From an uncultured Terriglobales bacterium (GTDB lineage Bacteria > Acidobacteriota > Terriglobia > Terriglobales > Acidobacteriaceae): 52,777 nt of DNA. Below the pieces are notes generated by a model. The model searched no databases. It was not told where the DNA came from and saw only the letters and a program-made list of their open reading frames with translations. The translations under genes were made by a program, and so were the position numbers. Location: positions 1 to 52,777 of the forward strand of contig CATPBJ010000102.1 in the NCBI GenBank assembly GCA_955652395.1, written 5' to 3'. Numbering within the stretch: position 1 is the stretch's first letter; every line of letters begins with the position of its first letter. Shown piece by piece: positions 9,606 to 33,645 of this stretch.

Positions 9606-10049
9606 CTATTTCACTGCGTCTGCTGTTTTCTCCGCGCCTTCTTTAACCCCGTGGCCAACATCCTTTGCGCCCTTTTTTATACCGTGCCCAGTCTTCTTGG
9701 CTACGTGTTTAGTGTCCTTGGCCGCGTCCTTGGTGGCGTCGGCGGTCTTGTCGGCTGCCTTATCGACGCCATGTTCGGTTTTCCTGGCGGCCTTCTTTGT
9801 CGCGTGGCCCGTATCCTCGGCCGCGTCCTTGGTCGCATCGGCCGTCTTGTCGACCGCTTTGTCGGTAGCATGCGCAGTTTTCTTTGCTGCCTTTTTGGTC
9901 GCGTGCGCCGTGGCTTTGGCTGCGTCCTTAGTGGCGTCGGCAGTCTTGTCGGCCGCTTTGTCGACGTCAGATCCGACGCCTTGCGAGTAGGCGAACGAGG
10001 CCAGACCGAGTAGCATCGCTGCGATAACCGTTGTCCATCTTGCTCTCAT
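9606..10049 (-). CDS. Secreted LEA-like protein with 33-residue repeats
   Basis: The protein has 147 residues. A signal peptide (about 1-22, ending 'ASFAYSQ') precedes a body made almost wholly of Lys, Ala, Asp, Thr and His. A 33-residue unit (three 11-mers) occurs twice in full and then partially a third time, each copy beginning 'DKAADKTADATKDAAK' or a close variant. The 11-residue period, lack of hydrophobic residues and charge pattern match group 3 LEA proteins, which stay disordered in water and form amphipathic helices on drying. The function (desiccation or osmotic protection in the periplasm) is an inference. ATG 10049 is chosen over the upstream extension to 10151 because AGGAGGAAGT directly precedes it and the signal peptide begins there. 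It lies downstream of recX. Confidence 0.72.
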   Translation of the reverse strand: MRARWTTVIAAMLLGLASFAYSQGVGSDVDKAADKTADATKDAAKATAHATKKAAKKTAHATDKAVDKTADATKDAAEDTGHATKKAARKTEHGVDKAADKTADATKDAAKDTKHVAKKTGHGIKKGAKDVGHGVKEGAEKTADAVK

Positions 10050-31715: not shown

Positions 31716-32519
31716 TCAGCGCTGCGCGTGGGCCGGAACCACTCTGGCGGACGACTTCAACCACCAGATCAGGCCGCCCGTGATCACCAGTGCGATAGAG
31801 ATCAACTGAGTTCCGGTCATGACTCCGCCGAAGACCTCACCGCGCCCGGGATCGTCGCGAATGAATTCCAGGAAATAGCGGGCGATGCCATAAAGAATGA
31901 AATAGGCCGCCAGCACCTGTCCATCGAACTTCTTGCGTTTGAAGAGCCACATCAGAACAAAAAAATTCGCCAGTTCCACCGCCGCTTCGAAAAGCTGAGT
32001 GGGCTCGAGCGGTATTCCCAGAGGCGTGTAGGAATTCAAATTGGCAATGGGGTTGGTGAAAGTCACGCCCCAGAAGTGATTGGTGGGCTTGCCATAGCAA
32101 CAGCCGGCGGCAAAGCATCCCACTCGTCCGATGGCGTGTCCCAAGGCAAGCCCGGGCGCGAAAGCATCCCAGGTCGCCAGCGGTGGCATATTGTGCTTGC
32201 GGATGTACCACACCGCCGCCACGGCCGCGCCGATCAGCCCTCCCGAGAAGACGCCCCCGGCTTGCATCGTCGACCAACTGAAGATGTCGCCTGGATGGGC
32301 GGAGTAGTAACCCCAGTCGTTGACGATGTACAAAATCTTGGCGCCGATAATGCCGCAAAGCACGACCAGAACGCCCAGGTTCCAGGCGTCGTCCGGATTG
32401 ATCCCTTGCCGGCTCGAGTTGCGGACGCTGATCCAGAGCCCGACCAGCACTCCGGTGGAAACCAACAGCCCGTAAGTGGGCAGGAAGAACTTGCCGATAT
32501 GAAAAAGTTGGGGAAACAC
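31716..32519 (-). CDS. lgt: Prolipoprotein diacylglyceryl transferase
   Basis: This inner-membrane enzyme transfers diacylglycerol from phosphatidylglycerol to the lipobox Cys of prolipoproteins, the first step of lipoprotein maturation. It has 267 residues and about seven membrane segments. The signature 'HAIGRVGCFAAGCCYGKP' (128-145) holds the essential Arg. Further family motifs are 'LPTYGLLVSTG', 'EPTQLFEAAVELANFF' and 'YGIARYFLEFIRDDPGR'. It starts with GTG. It lies upstream of the rluD gene and downstream of the 6S RNA candidate. A lipoprotein substrate is encoded at 41932. Confidence 0.96.
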   Translation of the reverse strand: MFPQLFHIGKFFLPTYGLLVSTGVLVGLWISVRNSSRQGINPDDAWNLGVLVVLCGIIGAKILYIVNDWGYYSAHPGDIFSWSTMQAGGVFSGGLIGAAVAAVWYIRKHNMPPLATWDAFAPGLALGHAIGRVGCFAAGCCYGKPTNHFWGVTFTNPIANLNSYTPLGIPLEPTQLFEAAVELANFFVLMWLFKRKKFDGQVLAAYFILYGIARYFLEFIRDDPGRGEVFGGVMTGTQLISIALVITGGLIWWLKSSARVVPAHAQR

Positions 32520-32602
32520 TAATGATCTAGATGCACGCCAAAGAGATTTTGTTACAGCTCAAGTTTAGCAGGAGCAGGCAGGGCGGGTGATTGGGAGATG
32601 AG

Positions 32603-32797
32603 AAGCCGACCCACTGTGCCGTGTGACGGGCCGAGAATGAACCCGTCGGTAGACGTTGGGCGCCCGCCGAGACCCTTTAGGCATCTCCGCATGGCGGAGC
32701 GCTGCACACCGGATCCTAGTTCGAGTCGAGCTCCCGTTCATTCAGCATTGGTTCAAAAATCGGTAACCGCCATCACCAACCCGGCAGGTCGGCTTTC
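32603..32797 (-). ncRNA. ssrS: Candidate 6S RNA
   Basis: A transcript of about 193 nt is closed by a long terminal stem: AAGCCGACC (32795-32787) pairs with GGTCGGCTT (32611-32603), extended by TGCCG with CGGCA after a small bulge. The central part is a loose region holding TTGAACCAATGCTGAATGAA, and GCGCTCC with GGAGATGCCTAAAG matches the 3' side pattern of proteobacterial 6S RNAs. The size (180-200 nt) and the position directly downstream of zapB-zapA, as with ygfE-ssrS in E. coli, agree. 6S RNA binds housekeeping RNA polymerase as an open-promoter mimic. No protein frame fits the region. Confidence 0.72.
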
Positions 32798-32804
32798 AGT
32801 CAGG

Positions 32805-32834
32805 ATGCTAGGGGAAACATCCCCGCATTGGCAA
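32805..32834 (-). promoter_or_regulatory. Promoter of the 6S RNA candidate
   Basis: On the minus strand TTGCCA (32829-32834, five of six consensus) and TAGCAT (32805-32810) are 18 bp apart. The predicted start falls at about 32797, exactly where the terminal stem begins. The spacer contains the palindrome GGGGATGTTTCCCC. Confidence 0.6.
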
Positions 32835-32923
32835 TAGGCAGGACGTAAAAAGATGGCAATCAGCTTGCCAGCGACTTTCGTAAGGGGGAACCTTCGAGCG
32901 GAATGGCCAGCCAGCAAGAATCA

Positions 32924-32978: not shown

Positions 32979-33314
32979 CTATCCAGCTCGCCGCTTTTCT
33001 TCCAGCACTTCATCCAGCGCGCGCGCGAGATGCTGCGCGCGGCGCAGATAGTCGCCCGATCCCACATCCTGGTTCCGTTTCACCAGGTGATACTCGTCGG
33101 CAATATTCAGCGCCGCCAGCACGGCCAGGCGTGCGGTATCCACGGTATGGGTCTGTTCCGCGACGGCCCGCATCTTGCCATCCACGTACTCAGCCAGCTT
33201 GAGAATGTATTCCGCATCCGAGCCCCGGAGATTGTAGGGCTGGTCGAAAATCTCCACCCGAACGGGATTATTGCTGGGATCCTTGATCGCGGTCTGCTTG
33301 GTGGCCGTTGCCAT
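32979..33314 (-). CDS. zapA: Cell division protein ZapA
   Basis: ZapA cross-links FtsZ filaments in the Z-ring. The protein has 111 residues: an N-terminal beta/alpha head ('VRVEIFDQPYNLRGSDAEYI') followed by a coiled-coil ('EYVDGKMRAVAEQT', 'LAVLAALNIADEYHLVK'). A short Lys/Thr-rich N-terminal tail precedes the head. It starts 34 bp after the zapB-like gene, and both are read towards the 6S RNA candidate. Confidence 0.9.
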   Translation of the reverse strand: MATATKQTAIKDPSNNPVRVEIFDQPYNLRGSDAEYILKLAEYVDGKMRAVAEQTHTVDTARLAVLAALNIADEYHLVKRNQDVGSGDYLRRAQHLARALDEVLEEKRRAG

Positions 33315-33348: not shown

Positions 33349-33645
33349 TCAGCTGACCGCCTGCTCCTCGGATATCGATTCGATTTGCGCCAACATCTTC
33401 TCGACCCGCCCACGGATTTCTTCCCGTTCCTTCCGCAAGCGCACCATTTCTCGGCGTAAACCTTCTACTTCTTCTTCGCGTTCCTCCAATTGCTGGCGCA
33501 GCCGCTGAGAATCCCGCTCCGCAACCGACCGGGCCTCTCGCGCCGACTTGTACAGCTCAATGGTGCGATAGACTTTCTCCTCGAGCGCCTGAAAATCGTC
33601 AGCCGGAACCTGGGCAGATACCCCTTCAGCCATTCTCACAGACAT
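33349..33645 (-). CDS. zapB: ZapB-like coiled-coil cell division protein
   Basis: The protein has 98 residues, almost all predicted coiled coil and very rich in Glu and Arg ('LRQQLEEREEEVEGLRREMV', 'EEIRGRVEKMLAQIESI'). The ending '...RV..ML..IE' is typical of the ZapB-like proteins found next to zapA. Its role is likely stabilising the Z-ring through ZapA. GGAGG lies upstream of ATG 33645. First gene of zapB-zapA-6S RNA. Confidence 0.8.
   Translation of the reverse strand: MSVRMAEGVSAQVPADDFQALEEKVYRTIELYKSAREARSVAERDSQRLRQQLEEREEEVEGLRREMVRLRKEREEIRGRVEKMLAQIESISEEQAVS

Follow-up and report, generated by a model that had tools for sequence, protein, structure and literature searches.

A predicted 6S RNA gene between zapA and lgt in an uncultured Terriglobales bacterium and the linkage of 6S RNA to zapA across bacterial phyla

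What occupies the space between zapA and lgt in a 52,777-nt stretch of contig CATPBJ010000102.1 from an uncultured Terriglobales bacterium (the window), and how widely does such an element lie beside zapA? An earlier note had read the element from its sequence as a 6S RNA and suggested a covariance search with Rfam RF00013 as a check. That search returned RF00013 as the sole Rfam match in the window (32793-32604 on the minus strand, 57.7 bits, E 6.2e-9, model positions 1-187 of 187), above the gathering score of 46.4 bits, and the 4.4-Mb assembly held only this match, i.e., one copy. The proposed closed 193-nt fold was also recovered, as the minus-strand segment from 32795 to 32602 forms a single closed, hairpin-like structure (-86 kcal/mol, z = -2.6; 2 of 200 shuffles folded equally well) and the RF00013 match runs from end to end; the closing stem reaches 32795/32603, and the mature RNA is predicted to be about 190-195 nt long. 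The Rfam score is moderate and falls below that of many other Acidobacteriota, which reach up to 117 bits, and the family model R1, whose training set includes the window, gives it 189.8 bits. A moderate score might be expected of a decayed, non-functional 6S gene, but the window sequence has kept its promoter as well as the paired columns and invariant positions of the RNA, and we consider decay extremely unlikely.

Table 1. Coordinates and supporting observations for the predicted 6S RNA gene and its neighbours in the window.
Feature	Position	Strand	Observation
-10 element TAGCAT	32805..32810	-	exact TAGCAT in 27/30 same-family loci
-35 element TTGCCA	32829..32834	-	18-nt spacer to -10
6S RNA (ssrS) gene, predicted	32604..32793	-	RF00013 57.7 bits, family model, covariation
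Predicted product-RNA template start (position 47)	32747	-	third nucleotide after invariant GAACC
zapA	32979..33314	-	Pfam ZapA PF05164, E 2.1e-19; upstream of 6S
zapB-like coiled-coil gene	33349..33645	-	PF06005 weak, E 9.5e-4, below Pfam cut-off
lgt (prolipoprotein diacylglyceryl transferase)	31716..32519	-	PF01790, E 5e-59; downstream of 6S

The fold was assessed by aligning the window RNA with 29 same-family RNAs (n = 30). RNAalifold predicted 50 base pairs, of which 22 showed at least one compensated double change, and such changes, whose absence between relatives would have counted against a 6S RNA, were found in helices 1, 2, 4, 6, and 7. The closing stem, the large central bubble, and the terminal arm were all present and backed by covariation. 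With this structure, 96.1% of cells were paired, versus 33-50% when the partner was slid by 1-3 columns, a control that retains the relatedness of the sequences, although the structure came from the same alignment and is therefore favored over its slid versions; in 500 shuffles, the observed value was not attained even once on any one of the five measures used, a count that is not a probability because the sequences are related. The same alignment bears on a coding alternative, in which the element would be a small protein of 79 aa encoded on the plus strand (32598-32837). This frame stays open across the whole element, but relatives differ by indels beyond multiples of three and by changes that compensate within base pairs, and a protein here is barely conceivable.

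The earlier note had also described a promoter with its start at the base of the stem, and this held among the relatives: TTGCCA, an 18-nt spacer, and TAGCAT occur in the window as described, and 27 of the 30 same-family loci have a perfect TAGCAT that precedes the first 6S position by 10-14 nt. At these 27 loci, (C)TTG precedes the -10 element at a spacing of 17 nt in 20 and 18 nt in seven; the relatives' -35 element reads CTTG(C), and the window has ATTG at this position. From where the two elements lie in the window, transcription should start at about 32798, at the stem base. Elements similar in kind (CTTGA with TAGGAT or TAGATT) precede 6S in two other sampled phyla. At the opposite end, no obvious intrinsic terminator was seen 3' of the 6S RNA in the window; in several relatives a T-run immediately follows the closing stem.

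All four genes of the locus lie on the same strand, in the order zapB-like, zapA, 6S, and lgt. The earlier note had named a zapB-zapA pair upstream; zapA was clearly identified, whereas the zapB assignment is weak and falls below the Pfam cut-off (Table 1), and a zapB-like gene also lies upstream of zapA at many related loci. Neither fau nor an EVE gene is present downstream of the window 6S, and lgt stands directly there. Elsewhere in the window, positions 9715-9965 hold a tandem repeat of a 99-bp unit in 2.5 copies, which suggests a repetitive protein because the period is divisible by three.

To place the locus in a wider context, gene neighborhoods were counted for the best-scoring 6S matches of each phylum, which are not a random draw; phylum names rest on the labels of the seed genomes, and the names rny, thiL, and rarA for downstream genes come from reading translations and from similarity within the set rather than from a Pfam scan. 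Of the 30 best-scoring Acidobacteriota 6S loci, 28 have zapA as the direct upstream neighbor in the same orientation. Within the window's own family, 19 of 29 loci show zapA upstream on the same strand inside the flank that was stored, and 26 of 29 are followed by lgt; in other Acidobacteriota a rny, thiL, or ymdB-like gene comes after 6S. Beyond this phylum, zapA was directly upstream of 6S on the same strand in 20/20 Krumholzibacteriota loci (rny following in 19/20), in 20/21 loci from the phylum of a Nitrospirae-labelled genome (rny in 19/21), in 13/15 Elusimicrobiota loci (rarA in 15/15), and in 11/11 loci from the small phylum of a Pseudomonadota-labelled genome (rny in 11/11); in the phylum of a Bacillota-labelled genome, zapA was directly upstream in none of 20 loci. 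A scan of named genomes anchored on ZapA placed 6S directly after zapA at loci labelled Elusimicrobia, Latescibacterota, Krumholzibacteriota, Gammaproteobacteria, and Pseudomonadota. The earlier proposal that zapA-ssrS synteny extends to Acidobacteriota was thus borne out but drawn too narrowly, as at least three further sampled phyla show the linkage.

Several loci departed from the common arrangement. Most of the sampled Elusimicrobiota loci leave only 2-10 nt between the zapA stop codon and the start of 6S, so that any 6S promoter would have to lie inside zapA, or else the 6S RNA is cut from the zapA transcript. One Gammaproteobacteria-labelled genome carries two 6S matches, each directly downstream of a zapA-like gene, through either duplication of a zapA-6S module or mixing of genomes in one bin. 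A local rearrangement at one further locus has put zapA on the other strand, downstream of 6S.

These neighborhoods bear on whether the fold might instead be a long zapA 3' UTR or a cis-acting lgt leader, with no free 6S RNA. The fold does sit between two same-strand genes, the window has no clear terminator, and the short gap to zapA in Elusimicrobiota would suit a UTR; against this, a conserved promoter of its own lies just upstream of the stem, RF00013 is matched over its full length, and the RNA persists while the downstream gene varies by lineage (lgt, rny, thiL, rarA). We regard a UTR or leader as highly unlikely. The small-protein, cis-leader, and pseudogene readings were accordingly set aside on the indels, the compensatory changes, the element's own promoter, and the retained invariant positions. 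Because the covariance match, the compensatory changes, the conserved promoter, and the phylum-wide zapA linkage all support the original 6S claim, the element between zapA and lgt is, judged from its sequence, almost certainly a genuine 6S RNA gene that has a sigma-70-type promoter of its own. As 6S RNA has long been known, this zapA-adjacent locus adds another member to an existing class.

RF00013 matched 199 of 297 sampled Acidobacteriota genomes and 47 of 60 genomes from the window's family. A family-tuned covariance model, built from same-family 6S sequences, recovered 6S in 11 of 16 Rfam-negative same-family genomes at 112-182 bits; Rfam therefore under-detects 6S in this family. A TAGCAT-type promoter likewise precedes 6S at the 11 recovered loci, with TAGTAT at one of them, and at most of them the downstream flank that was stored includes lgt. 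No match to the family model was obtained in 16 Rfam-negative Acidobacteriota of other families, which is compatible with loss or divergence. At E values of up to 5, no 6S was found beside zapA in eight Candidatus Aminicenantes loci, one Blastocatellia locus, two other Acidobacteriota loci, and one Bacillota-labelled locus, and two whole Aminicenantes genomes yielded no 6S match; in these Aminicenantes 6S may have been lost or may have diverged strongly.

The mechanism of 6S RNA, sequestration of polymerase followed by release through product-RNA synthesis, is carried over here from E. coli and B. subtilis. By analogy, the RNA would imitate an open promoter, and its central bubble would bind the RNA polymerase holoenzyme containing the housekeeping sigma factor (sigma-70/A), sequestering the enzyme as growth slows; once nucleotides return, polymerase would copy the bubble from about U47 onward, and synthesis of the short product RNA would be followed by release of the 6S RNA. 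6S RNAs typically form an abundant transcript of about 190 nt that peaks in stationary phase; the window gene carries a conserved promoter. By alignment with the E. coli RNA, the product-RNA start U44 presumably corresponds to position 47 (U47; Table 1). This position on the 5' side of the central bubble, the third past the invariant GAACC, is a pyrimidine (C or T) in all 30 same-family sequences, as a purine-initiated product RNA requires; such a product would begin AUUGGUUCAAAAAUCGGU, and product RNAs templated from U47 would start AUUGGUUCAA. The conserved pyrimidine is consistent with the release mechanism and is no proof of it. Expression, polymerase binding, and product-RNA synthesis of the window 6S are inferred from the studied systems, whereas its family membership, fold, promoter, template-start pyrimidine, and locus conservation were read from sequence comparison.

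The locus places a 6S gene in a little-studied lineage, and zapA-6S linkage as a multi-phylum feature means that 6S genes which are unannotated or divergent can be sought simply by their position. Its persistence raises the testable question of why both genes remain together; shared regulation, transcript maturation, and slow decay of gene order are possible reasons. One tentative proposal, which we consider rather unlikely, is that zapA and 6S, in most cases with rny after them, form an ancient block (in Acidobacteriota, Krumholzibacteriota, the Nitrospirae-labelled phylum, other diderm phyla, and Proteobacteria) whose linkage is functional: ZapA-dependent division would be co-regulated with the shutdown of transcription by 6S and with RNA turnover by RNase Y, or 6S would be partly matured from the zapA transcript.

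Among known systems, E. coli ssrS and B. subtilis 6S-1 share with the window RNA its length, closing stem, central bubble, terminal arm, own promoter, and single gene; relative to known 6S RNAs, its sequence is family-specific, of a kind scored moderately or missed by Rfam. E. coli ssrS likewise lies downstream of zapA, but is followed by fau (ygfA) where the window has lgt. A zapB-zapA-ssrS-(fau)-EVE array has been reported for beta- and gammaproteobacteria (PMC7641849); the order and strand of its zapB-like gene, zapA, and 6S are those of the window, which lacks fau and EVE, while most other Acidobacteriota and related phyla have rny, thiL, or rarA after 6S. According to a 2022 article that summarises Wehner et al. 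and Barrick et al. (PMC9130861), no 6S synteny is universal in bacteria and ygfA is the frequent 6S neighbor. In the literature covered, to which the surveys by Wehner et al. (2014) and by Barrick et al. (2005) do not belong, no earlier report of zapA-6S linkage in Acidobacteriota or the other sampled phyla was found; the multi-phylum linkage goes beyond the Proteobacteria-centred reports in that literature, and we leave priority undecided. The Ms1 RNA of Actinobacteria offers a further likeness, being 6S-like, polymerase-associated, and conserved in gene context, but it binds the core polymerase and has different neighbors (PMC9130861), whereas the window RNA matches RF00013 itself.
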